DNA of 54,011 nt from a virus, in the IMG/VR virus record IMGVR_UViG_3300033145_000425, positions 1-54,011 of that record, one strand, 5' to 3'. This document shows positions 4,617 through 49,523 of the stretch, piece after piece. How positions within the stretch are numbered: the first letter of the stretch is position 1; every line of letters starts with the position of its first letter. The translations under genes and the position numbers were made by a program. A model generated the notes under the pieces. That model did not search any database. It saw nothing but the letters and a program-made list of their open reading frames with translations, and had not been told where the DNA came from.

Positions 4617-7600
4617 CTATACGCTAACTGGTGTTGATTTATTGTCATCCTCAAGACTAATATATGTTTTTCCATCGAGTTCTACCTTATCGCCTTGCTC
4701 ATATCCTGCCCCATCAGCCAACTTCCCCTCCGCTGCCCATGTTCCCTGCCAATCAATATCTATCGCATCCACATCCCTGAACCATATCTCCCATGTGCCC
4801 CGGGTATTGCCCAACTCTACATCCCATGTCGCAAGGATACTGGACTCAAAAGTGCCGGTCTTGCGGTTTTCGGAGAATGTTTCCTGTAACTGGACATTGG
4901 ATGCTTTATTAATTAATTCCTTTACCGTCTCTGTTGTATCGCTGGGTGGCCTGATGGCGGGTTTGGATAAACCACCGTCCCATCCAGCTTCCGACTCAGG
5001 GTCACTTGGTACATAACTATCATACAGATCCGCATCATACTGTACCAGTGTCAATGTCCTCATAAGCTCTGAAGTACGGCTGATGTCTGTGATACGGTAC
5101 TTGTTGACTATTGTATCACTGTCATCACCAAATGAATATACATCATATTGCTGCGGAGGTACAGTCCACACAGTGCTATAATTTAGGCTATCCCGTGTTT
5201 CTCCCGTATTAAGGCTCGTGGTTTTGGTTATGCGTGTGCCACTTCTCCAGACTATGAGCTCATCATCGCCTGCCAGCGTAACTTCTCGGTCAAGCGTCAC
5301 CCGCGCCTGTTGCATCCAATCCGTAACCGCTGCCGCTTCCTCTACCTGTACCGCATCAAAATAAGCCGAACCCTCTCCGCCCAGCCATATCGTGAGAGTG
5401 GTTTGTCCGGGTTCCGTAGTCACAGTAAATTCGAGTCTTTCCCACGCATTCAGCCCCGCAGGATGTTTACTCGGATATGCGCTGCCTATCTTCGTCATAA
5501 TACGTAACGATGTGTCTGTGTGTGGGTAGGTGTAACATGACAGGGTGTATTGGGTAGAGGCCTTTAATCCTGTAATTGTCTGGCTAATACCACCGTTTTC
5601 AACGGCCCCAGTGTGGTAATAAGCCTTGTCGCCACTATATTTCCTCGCCGTGGAGATTATACGGGTTGCGGTTCCCCAATTAACCCAACTACTGAAGTCT
5701 GTTTCAAAGCTGGGATTGGATATGGGGTTTTCCTCATACTTCACAATACGCCCGCCACGCCCGGCATTCAACACATCATGCTGCACTTCCACCACATCTC
5801 CCGCCTGCGCCGCCAACGCATCTATATCCACGCCAAAAGATATTGCATTGTTAAGAAGTTCATTCCCCATGAGTATGAAACGCGCAGTAGCCCATGCCTG
5901 GTCAAATGTAGTAGTGCCATAAAGCGTTATAGTTACGGGTATACTGGGCATCTCGCTGCTGTCCCAGTCCTCCGTCCTCGCCGCCAGAGTCGTTTTCTCA
6001 TAGTTACGTTCCCGGTCATAGTAATTCGCCTCTATCATGTTTATCTTCTGATTGGATTCCATGAACTTCTGTACAAACGTACCGGTATGGATATTACCCA
6101 TAGTGAATAGCTGAGTGGCATCCGCTGCTTTGTCCGTAAACGCGTATATCTTAGACCCGACCGGATACACCATGCCCCGTCCCTCCTGACATACCCGCAA
6201 TATCGCATCCCAAGCGGTCATAAACGTATCAAACACTATATTGAGCTCATAGTCCAATGTCTCTATGTTGTCTGCCCATTCCCTGAATGATTCATAGTCA
6301 AGACGGTCTTTGTCCACACCACACCCGTATATTGCCTCTGCATCCTCATTGCCTGCTGTCGGGTACGCCGGGTGGTCAGGATGCCCCTGTGCAAGTATAT
6401 CATACACTGCCCATGCGTGATTGTCAGCAGGCCCCTCTACCCACAATCCGGTAGCCGTGAGCGTTATTTGCGTGGTCATAGCGCCATTTTCATTGATTGT
6501 GATGGTGCTATAGTCACTATCAAGATATAAGCGTTCAAAACCCATTACCTCGAACGCCACTTTACGGCTAATTTTGTACACACCATTATTTGCCCCACCA
6601 CTCACTACCGCACCGCTAATTGTAATAAACTGCCCTACCTGAAAATCATTCCAGTCGCCGTAGTATCCTTTGATGCGGATATAATTACCTGAAGCATAAA
6701 GTGTTATTTTGCTTGTAGTAAGTGTCTTTGCGTGTCGTGTATTATACACCCACACCTGACTCCTCTCCACATCCACCTGTACATCCAAATCTCCGCTGAT
6801 TTGCCCTGATGCCAGCGCTTTAATGCCGAGTAGGGGTTCACCGGGGTAGGTAAATCCGGGAGCCGACCTATCTGCATTTTCCTCTCCATAAACAACAGTT
6901 GCCACATTCGTCAGTTTTATAATAGATGGTGAACTTGCCGCTACACGTATCTCATATGTTTTGCCATATCCAAGTACCTCGTTTGCCTTTTTAGCGTTTA
7001 CAGATATGTGGAAATTCTGCGGTTTTGAGCGTGTTATTGCGCCTGCAGAAGGATCAGTATTCGTAATCTTATAATCTGTACCAGTGGCAAAGCCAAACTC
7101 AAAGTCAATCCAGCTTTCCGTATCACTATCTGTGTATTCTCTGTATTGGGCGAATACTCTACAAGAAGCATTCACCGTCTCTCCGGTTGTAGTCACCCCA
7201 TATAGCCCAAATGGGAATTCAAATATAAGTTGAATATCGTGTGCATTCGTTAATTTGAGACCCGGTTCATACCAATCGTCCGCAACCGGCATATTAGTGC
7301 CATATGGGTATTTTTTATCGTACCAACCCTGCGTGTCAACCCTAAAAGTGAAAATGTCATAGGCGGTGCCTGGAAGAGTAACATTGCCATACGCTTTTTG
7401 ATATTCTTTTTCGGACACCGCTTTGTCAAAAATAAGGTGAACAGTATGGGGGAGCATAGCTGGCGTAAGTACATACTCGTCTGCCTTTATCGTATAGGAT
7501 TCCCCTCGAAGAAGGAGCTGGTGCTCGTCCCAGCTTACCACCATAGCATCCGTATCTATTCGAAAATTAGCCGCTTCTTTAACAATTTCCGGGTAATCCA

Positions 7601-26897: not shown

Positions 26898-27234
26898 CCT
26901 CACTCCTCCGTTCAATATCTACACCATCATACTTATAATCATATATTTCTATACATTTAACATCAGTGATAGCACTAAATTTATGCCAGGTGCCTAATGG
27001 AATCTCAAATTGCCGGACATCATCCAAGATTACTATAGTACATCCAGGTTTATCTAACCCCCATAGGGTCAGTTTAAGCCGACCGGCAATGAGATAGAAG
27101 ATATTACTTTTCTGTGCATGGCGATGTTCCGAACAATATCCACCCTTTTTAATCTCCAAGTAGTGTGTGGATGTCGTGCCATTACGAAATAGTTCGGTCG
27201 TCTGTCCCCATACTTTTTCTTCTGGCTGCATCAT
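26884..27234 (-). CDS. Cupin-fold protein (RmlC-like)
   Basis: The product is 116 residues. CSEHRHAQKSNIFYLIAGRL and QFEIPLGTWHKFSA are the two cupin motifs; His in EHRH and His in GTWHKF could hold a metal. Small single-domain cupins beside sugar genes are often sugar isomerases or epimerases, or the sugar-sensing part of larger enzymes. Which applies here is open. The start shares ATGA with the stop of the 705-residue gene and the end overlaps the next methyltransferase. Confidence 0.78.
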   Translation of the reverse strand: MMQPEEKVWGQTTELFRNGTTSTHYLEIKKGGYCSEHRHAQKSNIFYLIAGRLKLTLWGLDKPGCTIVILDDVRQFEIPLGTWHKFSAITDVKCIEIYDYKYDGVDIERRSEGGIH

Positions 27235-29348
27235 TTTCCACCATACCCCGCCATGAACATCGGTCTGGCCATAACAACTGCATCCTCTTTACCATTGCTT
27301 TTATTCACGGCTGCAAACTGGTCTATCCACCACTCAATAGGTTTCACAGTCATATGCAAAACCACACCATTCAATATACCATCAAACAGAGCCACCACAT
27401 TAAATGTCTTCCGTTTCGTTATTCTGAATATTTCCTTAATCGATGCCGATATCTTCTCCGTCGGTACATGCTCCAAAACGTCCGTAGATACCGTGTAATC
27501 GAATTGGTTATCATCGAACGGCATATCCCATACCGGAGCCCCGAAGATGCCGTGTAGGCCGTGTGGCACTCCCTCCAGTGATATATCCACGCCCATACAG
27601 TCAACACCCGCTTCCCGGAGCCCTATCACCGAAGTACAATCGCCACAGCCAATATCCAATACTTTATCACCTTTATTCATTGTTTTTAACACATGCTGGA
27701 TTAAGGGTTGGGCGCACTTCGATGGTCCCACATAATGCCCCTTATAGCTTAGCGACCAGCAATCATCGTACTTTTTCTTTTCCCTCTCTACAACCGGGTC
27801 TTTAATGCCAACTTTATTCCGATACATTCTACTTGCCTGTCTTTGCTCAATCACCGGATACCCCTCCTCCATCATAAGATCATAAATCTGACAATAGGAA
27901 GCAGGTATATTATAAAATTTCAACTGGCTTTCCCATTTACTGAGCACATCCGCCATCGTCTGCATTTCGATGCGATCAGGATGCTCTTCATTTAAACGCA
28001 CCCACGTATGAACAAATCTTCTAACCTTGTCGATGTTCTTCAGATATATTACCGCATTGGCAAGCTGTTTATCCGTTCTGCGCCCGTGTGTATACTTTTT
28101 CCAATCAATTTTATGCACCCCAAGATCAAAATCAGCATTGTCAAATATGGCAGGGTACTGATGTATAGATGAATCCACATCCAGCCACAGAATATTCCGT
28201 TTGGGATACTTCTCCATCATCCCAGCGATAAATTTAGCCTTGTACTGCGTGTTCTTTTGCCAAGAACCAAAACTCGATATGCCCTGTATGTCGTGCTCAA
28301 GTCCAAATAAGTGCAATTCCTTGATTAGGCGGTCCGCCTCTTTCTTATAACCGGTCTCACGTGTATAAAATGACACCACTATAGGTCTGTCAGGTTTATT
28401 AGAAAGTACCGTCCGCAGATCACCGAATGGGAAACACTTCAATCCAGACTTCCGGTTAAGATTTACTACTTTGATTCCAGCCTTTGCCAATACCGGTGCG
28501 AATCCTGTGATTTCCTTAATATACTTTGCGTAAACACTTTCGCCATAATCTAAGGGATACCCGGAGTGCCACCATTTCTGTTTACCGCTCTTATTTCCCT
28601 GCATATCAAAGCCCAGCAGATAAATTTCCTTTACACCCAACGCTGCTGCGAGATTCAGTGCACCGTAGCCGGAGTTATTTTTGAATGATAAATGCTTCGT
28701 AGTGCCAATCCTGTGATCTGTTCTGGAATCCACGCCAATTAAAGAGAAATCTGTGGGATAAATTGTCTTGGAGAGAGACATCCACGCCTTAAAACCCTTA
28801 TAAGACTCAAACTTCTTTCTGGACGCTTCCCCAAGTTTACCGAGCACGGCCCACCCAAACAACTGCGGGTCAACCCCAAATAGAATGCTGGGGTCAAGTA
28901 GTTCATAAGCACGATTAATACCAATTACAAGCTCGCCAGCTAAGCCATCAAGGTTGCACCGCTTCAGGCTTGGTCCACCCCCTATAATAAAACACCTTCT
29001 GCCTTTCCATGTGCCATCGGGGACATAGTTCGCAAAGATTTCTGGCCCAAGTGATGCCCGCTGCTCCTGCATCCGCAGTTTACGAGCCGCCATTACAGGT
29101 TTGCGACCAGCGGCGGCGGCGGCTAATTTACGAGCGGCTGCCTTTCGTCTCGGTAAATCACTTATAGTAAGTATCTTTGCCGGGGGTATATCGGGTAGCA
29201 ACTCAATAGGCTTTATTCTCCGCCCACGAGAAGGCAGGTTGCTTATAGTTATTAACTTTGGTTCTAATTCAGCCTTTTGTTTTACCATTTGCTCCTCAGT
29301 AGGTCGCTTACGTTCCCCTTTTTTCCGCATATCGGACATTCTCAGCAT
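27231..29348 (-). CDS. Three-domain DUF115 / glycosyltransferase / methyltransferase fusion
   Basis: The product is 705 residues and the first cassette gene. Residues 1-100 are basic with a repeated LITISNLPSR / ILTISDLPRR motif and an Ala/Arg helix. Residues ~114-315 are DUF115-like (CFIIGGGPSLKRCNLDGL, VIGINRAYELLDPSIL, IYLLGFDMQG). Residues ~320-505 look like a GT-A sugar transferase, with VVSFYTRETGYKKEA and the acidic ILWLDVDSSIHQYP (DVD at 390-392). Residues ~540-680 are a methyltransferase (VLDIGCGDCTSVIGL, APVWDMPFDDNQFDYTV, DVLEHVP), homologous to three separate cassette genes. Fusing transfer and methylation suggests consecutive steps on one glycan. It starts just after the capsid terminator. 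Confidence 0.82.
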   Translation of the reverse strand: MLRMSDMRKKGERKRPTEEQMVKQKAELEPKLITISNLPSRGRRIKPIELLPDIPPAKILTISDLPRRKAAARKLAAAAAGRKPVMAARKLRMQEQRASLGPEIFANYVPDGTWKGRRCFIIGGGPSLKRCNLDGLAGELVIGINRAYELLDPSILFGVDPQLFGWAVLGKLGEASRKKFESYKGFKAWMSLSKTIYPTDFSLIGVDSRTDHRIGTTKHLSFKNNSGYGALNLAAALGVKEIYLLGFDMQGNKSGKQKWWHSGYPLDYGESVYAKYIKEITGFAPVLAKAGIKVVNLNRKSGLKCFPFGDLRTVLSNKPDRPIVVSFYTRETGYKKEADRLIKELHLFGLEHDIQGISSFGSWQKNTQYKAKFIAGMMEKYPKRNILWLDVDSSIHQYPAIFDNADFDLGVHKIDWKKYTHGRRTDKQLANAVIYLKNIDKVRRFVHTWVRLNEEHPDRIEMQTMADVLSKWESQLKFYNIPASYCQIYDLMMEEGYPVIEQRQASRMYRNKVGIKDPVVEREKKKYDDCWSLSYKGHYVGPSKCAQPLIQHVLKTMNKGDKVLDIGCGDCTSVIGLREAGVDCMGVDISLEGVPHGLHGIFGAPVWDMPFDDNQFDYTVSTDVLEHVPTEKISASIKEIFRITKRKTFNVVALFDGILNGVVLHMTVKPIEWWIDQFAAVNKSNGKEDAVVMARPMFMAGYGGK

Positions 29349-33338: not shown

Positions 33339-33372
33339 TGTGGCATTCTGCTACATGTGGCATTTTGCAACA
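33339..33372. promoter_or_regulatory. Tandem operator-like palindromes before the portal gene
   Basis: Two 17-bp inverted repeats lie end to end: TGTGGCATTCTGCTACA at 33339-33355 and TGTGGCATTTTGCAACA at 33356-33372. Each reads TGTNGCA-N3-TGCNACA. They sit between the -10 element at 33382 and the portal start at 33323, a good place for a repressor or attenuating factor. A third copy is at 49435. Confidence 0.7.
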
Positions 33373-37029: not shown

Positions 37030-37797
37030 TTATTCCTCCTCCACTTCCATGTCAGGGTCAAGCCCACCTTCTTCTCCGAAATTAGTATTTTTAATCTGTC
37101 TTAATTGCTTATCGAGAGGGCTTTCTTGGTTATTATCCCCCCAAGTGATGTTATTTCTCAACCACGTCTTAAATCTCCTATTGATATCAAATACTTTCTC
37201 CATCTCCCACCGCTCTTTTTTACCACCAGGTTTTTTTTCTTTCCAGTATTCCATGAAATCAAATTTGTTTTTCAGTTCGCTGGGAGAGAATTTTTTTTCT
37301 ATTTCTTTAAAAAGGGATTCAAGTGTATCGTTAGATATACCTATATTTGAAGATGAAGAAGAAGATGAAGAAGAAGATGAAGAAGAAGGGGTTGGATTTT
37401 GGTTGGAGTCTTGCTTAACCTTTTGCTTAACCTTTTGCTTAACCAAATTAGGGTTGCCGCCAAGCTTTCCTGACTCCTTTCTTATATTCCTAAGTCTATT
37501 ATCTTCAATCATTCGCTTACAGTAAAGCACCCCCTCTTCATCTTCTTTTAAAACACCGTATAGAATGAGTTCATTTAGTGCCACCTCAAACGTTCTATGA
37601 TTCATCCTCAACAGTTTTATAACCGGTTTATAACCGTTCTTTGAGCCGTTTATGAGCAGTTTACCATACGTTTCTGATTGATGCATGAGACACATAAGAT
37701 TAATTAAAAGCCCCTGAGATGTCATTGAACACATCTGTAATTTTGTATTGCTTAACCAATCTTCTGGATAAAATTGAAAGCTCGGTTGTTGTCCCAT
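37030..37797 (-). CDS. Replication initiation protein (DUF1376-like N-terminus)
   Basis: The product is 255 residues. SFQFYPEDWLSNTKLQMCSM with GLLINLMCLMHQSETYGKLL is the winged-helix start of phage replication initiator / replisome organiser proteins. Residues ~120-148 are a linker with KQKVKQKVKQ repeats and 13 consecutive serines, both encoded by 12-bp DNA repeats. The C-terminal domain (KWDFMEYWKE-like, VFDINRRFKTWLRNN) may contact the loader. The start ATG shares its A with the stop of the leader ORF (TGATG); the upstream TTG is less likely. Confidence 0.78.
   Translation of the reverse strand: MGQQPSFQFYPEDWLSNTKLQMCSMTSQGLLINLMCLMHQSETYGKLLINGSKNGYKPVIKLLRMNHRTFEVALNELILYGVLKEDEEGVLYCKRMIEDNRLRNIRKESGKLGGNPNLVKQKVKQKVKQDSNQNPTPSSSSSSSSSSSSSNIGISNDTLESLFKEIEKKFSPSELKNKFDFMEYWKEKKPGGKKERWEMEKVFDINRRFKTWLRNNITWGDNNQESPLDKQLRQIKNTNFGEEGGLDPDMEVEEE
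37348..37444 (-). repeat. Two adjacent 12-bp minisatellites in the initiator gene
   Basis: At 37348-37389 a unit TCTTCTTCTTCA (minus strand) repeats about 3.5 times and encodes polyserine. At 37413-37444 a unit close to AAGCAAAAGGTT repeats about 2.7 times and encodes KQKV. Both lie in the linker, where slippage would change length in steps of four residues without breaking the frame. Confidence 0.85.
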
Positions 37798-37892
37798 CAC
37801 TTCACCCCACAAAAGAAAAAGGCAGTAAATCCCGACCGAAAGAAATGAAGTATCATTTCTAATACGAAATCTACTGCCCTTAATTTATCCAT
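37797..37892 (-). CDS. 31-codon leader ORF coupled to the replication gene
   Basis: MDKLRAVDFVLEMILHFFRS then GFTAFFFCGVK. It is hydrophobic toward the end. Its ribosome site (GATGAGG) lies in the 5' arm of a long stem at the mRNA start, and its TGA overlaps the initiator ATG (TGATG). This is the layout of a regulatory leader peptide whose translation controls the downstream replication gene. Confidence 0.6.
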   Translation of the reverse strand: MDKLRAVDFVLEMILHFFRSGFTAFFFCGVK

Positions 37893-37916
37893 AAAAAATA
37901 CCTCATCTCTTTCGGT
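37821..37916 (-). promoter_or_regulatory. Switch-like structured 5' leader of the replication gene
   Basis: Two inverted repeats interlock. Stem A pairs 37898-37916 with 37835-37853: 19 bp, with 17 Watson-Crick pairs and two G-U pairs in RNA. Stem B pairs 37869-37878 with 37821-37830: 10 bp, one G-U. The order A5'-B5'-A3'-B3' means the stems form a pseudoknot or exclude one another. Stem A begins at the predicted transcript start and hides the leader ribosome site. Confidence 0.72.
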
Positions 37917-37922
37917 ACTTAC

Positions 37923-37951
37923 AGTATAAACACACGATTTGAAAAAGTCAA
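37923..37951 (-). promoter_or_regulatory. Sigma70-type promoter for the replication operon
   Basis: On the minus strand TTGACT (37946-37951), 17 bases, then TATACT (37923-37928). Transcription would begin near 37916, exactly where the long leader stem starts. It lies just downstream of the methyltransferase remnant and drives the leader ORF, initiator and loader genes. Confidence 0.78.
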
Positions 37952-37969: not shown

Positions 37970-39321
37970 TTATAAATCCAGCTTTCTCTGTTTCATTTCA
38001 AACTCTATCCGCTTATTTGCCATGTCTATATATTCCTGATTAGGCTCAAATCCGATGAATTGCCGGTTAGCTCGCAGGGCAACTTTAGCAACCGTGCCAC
38101 TTCCCATGAATGGGTCAAGGACTATACCATGTTCTGGACACCCCGCAAGTATAGGTGTCTCAACAAGCTCCTCTGGAAAGGTGGCAAAGTGTGCTTCTGG
38201 ATATGGCTGAGTCGTTATGTCCCATACAGATTTCTTTAGCCCGTATTCCTTACCTATTTGTTCCCAAACTCCGGGGGCAATATCACCTACACGTTGAGAT
38301 ATGAATAGTAGTAACTCATCTATATCAATGGACTCGTCTTTCCATACACAGCGTTTGTTGCGACCTTGTAACATGCGTTCCCTTGTTTTATCTTCATCTC
38401 TATTTTCTTGTGTAAATGCAGAATTACCCCCTTGCCTATCCGATGAATAATCTTTAGCTTTCATCAATCGTCTAACATCACCCTCGGGGTCCAAACTTGA
38501 ATCAAACTGTTGCTCAAACCAATACTTCCTCTGCTTAGTAAAGAAGAACACCTTTTCAAAGTCCACCGTGAACCTGTCCTTTGCCGAACTTGGCATACAG
38601 TTCCGTTTAAACCATATCAGCTCATTCCGTAGTATCCATCCTGCATCAGTCATGGCAAGGGCAAACCTTGATGGGATTTGGCAGAGTGATTTGGCGGGTA
38701 ATCCACATCTATCAGGTGCTTGTTTACCCATAAAATCTATTGTCCCTTTATTTCCCAGTTGTGTATTGCTTGCATTATCAGCTCCACCCCCACGATAATT
38801 AGCATTATAACTATCTCCAATATTAACCCAGCATGTCCCTGTCTTTTTCAGTACACGCTTAACCTCGTCAAATATCTGCATCAGGTGTTGGATGTATAGC
38901 TGAAAGGTTGGCTCAAGTCCAAGACTGCCACGCCATGCACCGCAGAGGGTGCAGAAATTTCCGTGCCCTTTATTCTGATTGAGATTAGTTTTCTTCATGG
39001 GCGCACCAATAGTTGTTTTGTGGCAACCCGGGTTATGATGTTTACGCTTAAATGTATGCCAGCCCGATTGCCCTGCAGGCAGCATTGTATCTCCCCACTC
39101 ATGCTCACAACTATTGGCAGTCCAACTCATCATCCCGCGATAGATCTCCATTGAAATATGAGATTCAGCATCCCATACAAGCGGTTCAAGCCCATAATCC
39201 CTGATTAAAGTCCCCAATAAGGAGGAGATGTAATAATACAATCAATAGATTCATCCGGTAATTGCTTTAAACCCGTTAAGGCATCGGTGCAAATAATCTT
39301 ATTTATCCACTCGTTGAGAAT
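37970..39321 (-). pseudogene. Beta-class DNA methyltransferase, broken at its N-terminus
   Basis: Residues after position 39202 (RDYGLEPLVWDAESH onward) give a methyltransferase with motif I at the end (LDPFMGSGTVAKVALRAN), the beta-class order. The missing front is present in another frame: 39205-39321 encodes [20 protein letters not shown] and then [12 protein letters not shown], motif IV, followed by TAA. Conserved proteins read SPPYWGLRDYGLE, so five extra bases (TAATC) separate the halves and shift the frame. The front part also lacks a start codon and directly follows the HNH stop. It is probably inactive, unless frameshifting restores it. The middle contains cysteines and CTLCGAWRGSLGLEP. 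Confidence 0.8.
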
Positions 39322-39846
39322 TTAAACCACCCCCTTGCTGTGTTCTTTTTTATGACATTTTATACATAGAGTTATTAAATTTGTTGGCTCAAATCTTAAT
39401 TTAGGGAATCTACTCCATTCTTTGATATGATGAACATTGTAATTCCCCTTTGTATTTCCGCATTGTTGGCATGTATAATTATCTCTTTTAAGAATACTCT
39501 TGGCTAATTCTTTCCATGCAGACCGTGCATATTTTGATTGTCTTTCGGGCGAACATCCACCATTCCAATTAGGATTTTGTTTACCAGTTTTACCATACAT
39601 CCCATTTAATTTTCCCGATTGCCCCCAAATTTTAATCTTTCTTATTTCTTTCGTTGTACGTGTCTGTATATTATGTTTTTTAAGAAAGTACAAGATATTA
39701 TTTTCTTTACACCCCTGTTCATCAGCTATTTGTGAAGCTGATTTACCCTGTATTATATATTCATTATTGAGCCAATCTCTATCCCAATAAGATTTAGGTT
39801 TCCGCCAATGATGCCCTTTTGTAAATTGTCCTTTTTTATTTATCAT
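39322..39846 (-). CDS. HNH homing endonuclease with NUMOD3-like motif
   Basis: The product is 174 residues. The N-terminal WLNNEYIIQGKSASQIADEQ is a helix-turn-helix; GKLNGMYGKTGKQNPNWNGG is the NUMOD3 DNA-binding motif. The HNH core is YTCQQCGNTKGNYNVHHIKE with a second cysteine pair in ITLCIKCHKKEH. It is inserted at the conserved PPYW codons of a DNA methyltransferase gene. I chose the ATG at 39846, since codons upstream are the out-of-frame methyltransferase remnant. No ribosome site is evident, but a promoter lies just upstream. Confidence 0.88.
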   Translation of the reverse strand: MINKKGQFTKGHHWRKPKSYWDRDWLNNEYIIQGKSASQIADEQGCKENNILYFLKKHNIQTRTTKEIRKIKIWGQSGKLNGMYGKTGKQNPNWNGGCSPERQSKYARSAWKELAKSILKRDNYTCQQCGNTKGNYNVHHIKEWSRFPKLRFEPTNLITLCIKCHKKEHSKGVV

Positions 39847-39848
39847 AA

Positions 39849-39992
39849 TTATAATATACCATATTGTTGTATAAAAAGCAAGACATATCCCCAATATGGC
39901 GGCCTGGTAATCAGACAATCCACACTCTCATCGTCAAGCTGTGCCAATCCAGTCAGGGCATCCATGCAATGTATTTTGTTTAGTTCAAGCAT
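39849..39992 (-). pseudogene. DNA methyltransferase N-terminal fragment (motif IV)
   Basis: The 47 codons give MLELNKIHCMDALTGLAQLD, then DESVDCLITRPPYWG and a foreign tail. This is the start of a beta-class DNA methyltransferase with motif IV (PPYW; Arg replaces the usual Asp/Ser). It stops at the point where the homing endonuclease begins. It is a paralog, not a copy, of the fragment after the endonuclease: the residues are similar but the DNA is quite different. The start overlaps the resolvase stop (TGAATG). Confidence 0.8.
39853..39881 (-). promoter_or_regulatory. Candidate promoter of the homing endonuclease
   Basis: On the minus strand TTGCTT (39876-39881), 17 bases, then TATATT (39853-39858), ending 6 bases before the endonuclease ATG. 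So short a leader would give a nearly leaderless mRNA, in keeping with the missing ribosome site. Confidence 0.5.
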
Positions 39993-40454
39993 TCATTTCA
40001 CCCCGAACTCTTCCATAACAAAAAGCAAGAGCGCATAGGCATCGGCCTCGTTGTCATCAACAGGAGGTCGCCCGGTGATGCGTTCAAACCATGCCATCAT
40101 ATCAGGTTTTGAAGCATTGCCTTTGCCGGTAGCGAACTTCTTTATAGTTGCCGTATGAACCGCCATGTATTCCGCATCAATACTGGCAGCGGCTTCCATG
40201 GCACGAGTGGTGAGACCAACACAGATTTCGGTAGCGGCGCCCCCGCGATGATGTGCCCGCTCAAAGGCGATTACCTTAACATCAGACGGCGTGATTTCTT
40301 TGAGCCATTTATTAAACCGCAGAAACAAAATCCCATTTGATTCACCACGCTTTTTACTGAAGTCCTGGACACCACTTTCAATATTGCCTTCATATAAACA
40401 AGCCCAGCCGGTTTTGGTTGCACAATCGAGTGCCATAATATTAAAATTATTCAT
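39993..40454 (-). CDS. RuvC-like Holliday junction resolvase
   Basis: The product is 153 residues. MALDCATKTGWA gives the first catalytic Asp (10), VIAFERAHHRGGAA the Glu, and DDNEADAYALL near residue 137 the C-terminal acidic pair, the RuvC/RNase H-fold pattern. It resolves four-way junctions made by RecT-driven recombination or replication before packaging. The ATG at 40454 follows GGGAGGGTAT and overlaps the upstream stop (ATGA). Confidence 0.82.
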   Translation of the reverse strand: MNNFNIMALDCATKTGWACLYEGNIESGVQDFSKKRGESNGILFLRFNKWLKEITPSDVKVIAFERAHHRGGAATEICVGLTTRAMEAAASIDAEYMAVHTATIKKFATGKGNASKPDMMAWFERITGRPPVDDNEADAYALLLFVMEEFGVK

Positions 40455-49384: not shown

Positions 49385-49523
49385 CTATTTGAAACCGCAA
49401 TCCCATTCCCACTTAAAGAGGCAATATCTCGAGGTGTGGCAAAATGCAACACTCACACTTGAAAAGCCCTATTTAAAACCAGCCACTTGAAGAGGCTATT
49501 TGAAGACCCCTATTTGAAGACAG
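49385..49523 (-). repeat. Seven degenerate YTTCAARTRG-type repeats
   Basis: Read on the minus strand, seven short elements follow one pattern: GTCTTCAAATAG twice, CTCTTCAAGTGG, TTTTAAATAGGG, TTTTCAAGTGTG, CTCTTTAAGTGG and GTTTCAAATAGC. Start positions on the plus strand are about 49385, 49411, 49457, 49469, 49484, 49496 and 49510; the last four steps are 12-15 bases. Two variants alternate (AAATAG and AAGTGG). They resemble iterons or a repressor array. Confidence 0.6.
49435..49451. promoter_or_regulatory. Operator-like palindrome (third TGTNGCA-N3-TGCNACA copy)
   Basis: TGTGGCAAAATGCAACA matches the site at 33356-33372 at all positions except the three central bases. It lies in the leader of the second early operon, inside the degenerate repeat array. 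Confidence 0.68.

Follow-up and report, generated by a model that had tools for sequence, protein, structure and literature searches.

Leader ORFs and attenuators are already known to control the replication genes of plasmids, and a related logic is found in P4 and Gifsy-1. In the I-complex plasmids, such as ColIb-P9 and pMU720, repB/repA is controlled by alternative RNA structures and a pseudoknot. Translation of the leader peptide is required for repA in these plasmids, under the control of RNAI (PMC10286972). In pT181 repC and pIP501 repR, which are under antisense control, a pre-emptor helix is set against a terminator directly ahead of rep (PMC5703833). The isrK-orf45-anrP locus of Gifsy-1 has a premature terminator with readthrough, forms alternative structures and couples anrP to a leader ORF, and the same article places the replication genes of satellite phage P4 under premature termination and RNA pairing (PMC4825925). 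In Escherichia coli pyrBI, a ribosome advancing behind RNA polymerase blocks the pyrL terminator (PMC5021804). Here, we compared with these systems a locus at which the choice of making a phage replication protein is probably taken at an RNA switch, helped by translation of a leader ORF.

The putative control element and the probable replication gene

The window, meaning the whole stretch of viral DNA that was analyzed, comprises 54,011 bases and carries its long genes on the minus strand. All parts of the putative control element lie on this strand between 37951 and 37797. Upstream of the element are genes for a RecE/YqaJ-like exonuclease, RecT, a DUF5131 protein, a RuvC-like protein, an HNH protein and a DNA methyltransferase, and downstream the probable replication gene (rep) is followed by a DUF6475 gene, the small and large terminase subunits, and then glycan and tail genes. 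The features of the locus are as follows.

37923 to 37951, minus strand: sigma-70-like promoter TTGACT-17-TATACT, from a consensus match alone (10/12)
37897 to 37916, minus strand: 5' arm of stem A, 20/20 pairs (3 G·U) with 37854-37835
37797 to 37892, minus strand: leader ORF of 31 codons, MDKLRAVDFVLEMILHFFRSGFTAFFFCGVK, whose stop TGA overlaps the rep ATG (TGATG)
37865 to 37881, minus strand: 5' arm of stem B, 17 contiguous pairs (4 G·U) with 37834-37818
37841 to 37860, minus strand: inner hairpin of stem B, 8 bp AGAAATGA/TCATTTCT, loop UACU
37835 to 37854, minus strand: 3' arm of stem A, partner of 37916-37897
37818 to 37834, minus strand: 3' arm of stem B, adjoining the 3' arm of stem A with zero linker
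37811 to 37820, minus strand: U-tract UUUUUCUUUU / TTTTTCTTTT, directly after the G+C-rich base of stem B
37802 to 37808, minus strand: rep Shine-Dalgarno (SD) sequence GGGGTGA, outside both stems, -6.0 kcal/mol to the anti-SD
37030 to 37797, minus strand: probable replication initiator or replisome organizer of 255 aa, from weak PHROG matches

The promoter boxes TTGACT (37951-37946) and TATACT (37928-37923), separated by a 17-nt spacer, are intergenic and located directly past the methyltransferase stop. A match of this kind is not rare by itself, with 13 found versus 10.7 expected in a relaxed scan. The promoter ends ~6 nt upstream of the predicted +1 at ~37916, which coincides with the first base of stem A. 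Among the upstream genes, the HNH endonuclease gene (39918-39322, minus strand) is flanked by two partial DNA methyltransferase-like starts within 39200-40010 of the window, one a truncated copy ending in ...TRPPYWGY and the other running to ...TSPPYWGL before a frame break. This arrangement suggests an insertion or duplication inside the methyltransferase gene.

The 255-aa protein is a probable replication initiator, based on its weak PHROG matches to a replisome organizer (8e-5) and a primosomal protein (9e-5). A comparison with Pfam, NCBIfam and PDB sequences gave no useful match, and the AlphaFold model of the protein was poor (mean pLDDT 46). Homologues are present in the relatives L002 (71%) and L003 (66%), which have similar recombination and replication neighbourhoods, and the C-terminus of the L003 homologue gives a DnaA_N match below threshold. 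In L003, this gene (5001-6278) also carries a GIY-YIG/T5orf172 domain between its N- and C-terminal parts, an endonuclease domain of the homing type set within a replication protein.

Several other sequences in the window were recorded alongside the replication gene. Short direct repeats of TCTTCAARTRG (three exact and one near) cluster at 49409-49520 (minus strand) in a long non-coding stretch, and this iteron-like cluster is a possible origin. The 17-bp motif TGTTGCANNNTGCCACA has two tandem copies at 33339-33372, which closely follow a promoter-like TTGACA-17-TATCAT (33410), and a single copy at 49435-49451 in the non-coding region at 49.4 kb. With 6 hits on both strands at 3 places versus 0.63 expected, it is a candidate operator common to two phage control regions. 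A 705-aa protein encoded at 27231-29348 (minus strand) has sialyltransferase-like and methyltransferase-like parts according to PHROG and is near another glycosyltransferase-like gene, and the region is a possible glycan-modification cluster among the late genes.

The leader TGA (37799-37797) and the rep ATG (37797-37795) share one base, and from this overlap the leader is probably coupled translationally to rep. The leader SD, GAGGU at 37904-37900, pairs with the anti-SD at -7.2 kcal/mol compared with a gene median of -8.2 kcal/mol. The codon usage of the leader is like that of the phage genes, but frame +1 scores nearly as well and the ORF is too short for a coding test. Phe accounts for 7 of the 31 residues, a content largely dictated by the T-rich arms and the U-tract; a Phe-sensing role of the leader is only an idea.

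Two mutually exclusive RNA stems

The preliminary description of this locus had placed a transcription start exactly at a stem hiding the leader ribosome site, a second stem interlocked with the first, and a 31-codon leader overlapping the replication gene. We saw all of these elements, although the transcription start is a prediction from the promoter boxes. The 5' arm of stem A begins at the predicted +1 and contains the leader SD, and the 5' arm of stem B is inside leader codons 4-10. The lengths given for the stems required revision: the helix described as 19 bp is the same helix, in which 20 pairs (3 of them G·U) follow one another without a break, and the interlocked second stem, underestimated at 10 bp, runs to 17 unbroken pairs (4 of them G·U). 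Stem B as a whole is made up of the 17 pairs, then a small internal loop, then the perfect 8-bp hairpin, and this inner hairpin overlaps the 3' arm of stem A and thus competes with stem A. The arms are interlocked in the order A5'-B5'-A3'-B3'. Since the two 3' arms abut with zero linker, the full 20-bp and 17-bp stems cannot coexist and a full pseudoknot is impossible, while a partial pseudoknot may form between the arms of A and B. As such, a ColIb-P9-type (I-complex) pseudoknot, the kind of plasmid control with which the locus had been compared, is not supported here.

The observation of the two stems is real and statistically strong. When we surveyed the minus strand of the window for ungapped helices spanning at most 120 nt, allowing G·U pairs, A and B were the two longest (20 and 17 bp; next 15 bp), and 40 dinucleotide shuffles contained a mean of 0.075 helices of at least 17 bp. 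Among 2000 synonymous recodings of the leader, in which the peptide was kept and phage codon usage was applied, none gave an interlocked 20/17 pair, whereas weaker interlocks of 12/10 were not rare, at 130/2000. In terms of GC-corrected folding energy, the region was the most stable of 2696 windows of 110 nt on the strand.

The pairing could in principle act in DNA, with the inverted repeats serving as operator or origin sites. Long inverted repeats do adjoin both a promoter and a replication gene here. However, all seven non-Watson-Crick positions (7/7) read as G·U in the mRNA, where the opposite strand would have A·C. While this count is partly built in by a search that allows G·U, the core mismatches in the stems were also G·U in an unbiased repeat search. 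The folding energy was -37.3 kcal/mol for the mRNA strand versus -17.8 kcal/mol for the opposite strand. The wobbles on the mRNA strand together with this energy gap point to RNA and not DNA. Furthermore, the arms are not repeated elsewhere, and the short repeats near 49.4-49.5 kb are more origin-like. Because of the strand bias of the G·U pairs, we judged the operator or origin reading unlikely, and we give it hardly any credence.

To follow the order of folding, we calculated minimum-energy folds of a transcript growing from 37916, with all energies being equilibrium predictions. Stem A was present at ~76-92 nt (-27.6 kcal/mol when complete), and from 96 nt on, with the 3' arm of stem B emerged, the fold switched to stem B (-34.7 kcal/mol at 98 nt). 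In the 107-nt transcript, the energies were -36.2 kcal/mol for B versus -28.9 kcal/mol for A. The direct nested path from A to B had a saddle near -6.2 kcal/mol, and so A may, in this model, be kinetically trapped and remain in place while transcription proceeds; the saddle could be lower if the path ran through a pseudoknotted intermediate. We also masked a ribosome footprint along the leader. B formed when the ribosome occupied codons 1-2 or ~13-18, A when it occupied codons 3-11, and B was absent from codon 20 on, in a crude model in which some ribosome positions leave A standing and a ribosome inside the A loop is doubtful.

Terminator-like site and proposed control of rep

The U-tract directly following stem B was missing from the preliminary description. 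Stem B ends ~20-21 nt before the rep ATG, and the U-tract ends 13 nt before it. From their sequence, stem B and the U-tract look like an intrinsic terminator just before the rep ribosome site. With strict criteria (a helix of at least 7 bp and at least 8 T in 10), the minus strand had no other site of this kind, against an expectation of 0.3 sites per shuffle. Two points count against a terminator: the loop region of B is unusually long for an intrinsic terminator, and a standard scan missed B. Under looser criteria, ordinary short-loop terminators were found elsewhere in the phage, for example at 49820-49798 and 29396-29368. The latter (minus strand) is a G+C-rich terminator-like hairpin, CAGGGG..CCCCTG followed by a T-run, and a hairpin of similar sequence recurs 3' of the terminase gene in the relatives L035, L037, L038 and L041.

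Stem B might be a passive terminator between operons that ends or dampens upstream transcripts, with stem A and the leader ORF being fortuitous. Same-strand genes lie on both sides of B, and intergenic terminators are used in this phage group, as at 29396-29368 and the similar sites in relatives. However, the 20 nt from B to the rep ATG leave no room for a promoter, and therefore rep must be read through B. A fortuitous stem A is also difficult to reconcile with its being the longest helix of the strand and interlocked with B. We regard a passive terminator as quite unlikely.

Two mutually exclusive helices, the later of which is followed by a U-tract, are what characterizes an attenuator, and this is the arrangement of the predicted folds. 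The terminator-like character of B and its U-tract moves the likely mechanism from control of translation only to transcription attenuation. We propose that the element is a cis-acting transcription attenuator, with A as antiterminator and B as terminator, overlaid on a translationally coupled leader ORF and controlling the probable rep; we put the chance that this is correct at about even. In this mechanism, RNA would start at the first base of stem A, and A would form first as the RNA emerges. Stem A would bury the leader ribosome site and tie up sequence that B needs, thereby acting as an antiterminator. If A were prevented or displaced, B would form, and transcription would end in the U-tract without reaching the rep ribosome site. 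A ribosome that loads on the leader would block the 5' arm of A. A ribosome close behind RNA polymerase would then cover the arms of B, so that termination would not occur and re-initiation on rep at TGATG would give high expression, whereas with a late or slow ribosome B would form and rep would be off. The downstream packaging genes are perhaps also under the control of the attenuator.

A more specific proposal concerns the signal that the switch would sense. One helix would serve as both the antiterminator and the lock of the leader ribosome site, leader initiation and ribosome speed would set readthrough or termination, and replication, possibly together with the packaging genes, would be gated on host translation capacity. 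This proposal is tentative, and we consider it somewhat improbable.

Control might also be exerted on translation only, such that the stems govern the leader ribosome site, most Rep comes from coupling at TGATG, and the U-tract is incidental. This corresponds to the idea in the preliminary description and would be I-complex-like, minus the antisense RNA. The burial of the leader SD in A and the TGATG overlap are consistent with this, as are a rep SD slightly weaker than typical (-6.0 versus a median of -8.2 kcal/mol) and the I-complex precedent, in which repA needs translation of the leader (PMC10286972). Nevertheless, the rep SD is outside both stems, and so nothing obvious ties rep to the leader, and a U-tract right after B would be a coincidence given the 0.3 strict sites expected per shuffled strand. 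Nor does the locus have the full pseudoknot, impossible with zero linker, or an antisense promoter among the plus-strand matches described below. Translation-only control appears unlikely to us, though worth weighing.

Antisense control had been suggested as a reasonable guess for this locus. A plus-strand scan of 37400-37950 confined to the sigma-70 consensus found no promoter match of at least 8/12, which speaks against the suggestion. A related reading is that a terminated short RNA, or an RNA or protein acting in trans (possibly Rep), binds the 5' arm and sets A or B, creating dose-dependent feedback on replication. The strong arm sequence at the 5' end of the RNA would suit such a factor, and pT181/pIP501 and isrK use trans RNAs at the same step. 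Apart from the result of the antisense promoter scan, this reading is disfavored by the fact that neither arm has a second copy elsewhere in the window, save for A's own partner, and that no RNA-binding feature was recognized. We think a trans-acting factor improbable.

Relatives and comparison with known systems

We then searched for relatives of the element. None of the 4227 Rfam families gave a covariance-model match above its gathering score, and the DapZ and ctRNA matches were weak, far below the cut-off, and were rejected. Nothing meaningful was obtained by blastn of the 4.2-kb region and the 191-bp element against phages or of the element against plasmids, and tblastn of the leader peptide against phages gave no match. 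We searched IMG/VR with exact patterns of an A arm and the B 3' arm, and GTDB contigs with a pattern of the leader start, and obtained no copy of the element; 20 arm-pattern matches in IMG/VR all occurred without the partner arm and were taken as chance. A GTDB scan for Rep relatives gave none. In L002 and L003, the closest Rep relatives, a different gene precedes rep and there are no such stems. In the terminase relatives (71-84%), there is either a module of the L002 type or a different one, in some cases a swapped module that has a DNA polymerase gene instead, and no interlocked pair of long stems was present in the regions covered for the Rep, DUF6475 and TerL relatives. Since no homologue of the element was found and the relatives are without the whole leader instead of having a broken version, there is no covariation to draw on. 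The lack of a homologue, which is the chief weakness of the case, and the fact that close Rep relatives manage without the element count against the attenuator.

When the phage locus was compared with pT181/pIP501, the common feature was a predicted pre-emptor helix competing with a terminator hairpin directly before rep. In contrast with those plasmids, which need an antisense RNA, none is apparent at this locus, and the element sits in a phage. Moreover, the leader ORF runs through the structures, whereas no leader ORF is mentioned in the pT181/pIP501 description (PMC5703833). Gifsy-1 isrK-orf45-anrP is similarly a phage locus with a promoter, a terminator, structures hiding the leader ribosome site and coupling between leader and gene. 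However, its target anrP activates an antiterminator while the target here is a probable replication gene, its terminator belongs to an upstream sRNA while the putative one here is inside the leader ORF, and the likeness seen is one of arrangement. In satellite phage P4, immunity involves a processed CI RNA acting on seqA/seqC, and no such RNA was identified at this locus.

As with pyrL, we propose that a ribosome trailing RNA polymerase through the leader ORF prevents the terminator; set beside pyrL, the phage locus is marked by an extra helix, A, that closes off the leader ribosome site, and by the TGATG overlap. The I-complex plasmids share with the locus a leader peptide upstream of a replication gene, but here there is no antisense RNA promoter in the sigma-70 scan, no full pseudoknot is possible, and a terminator U-tract is present. 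If the proposed mechanism is true, the locus would be a self-contained version of such control before the probable replication gene of a tailed phage, with the antiterminator doubling as the lock of the leader ribosome site, and would offer phages a compact means of linking their replication to translation in the host. Taken together, by analogy the element seems to be a variant of a known switch type that works most like pT181-type attenuation with leader coupling of the pyrL/isrK type, a resemblance in working that does not establish membership in those families.
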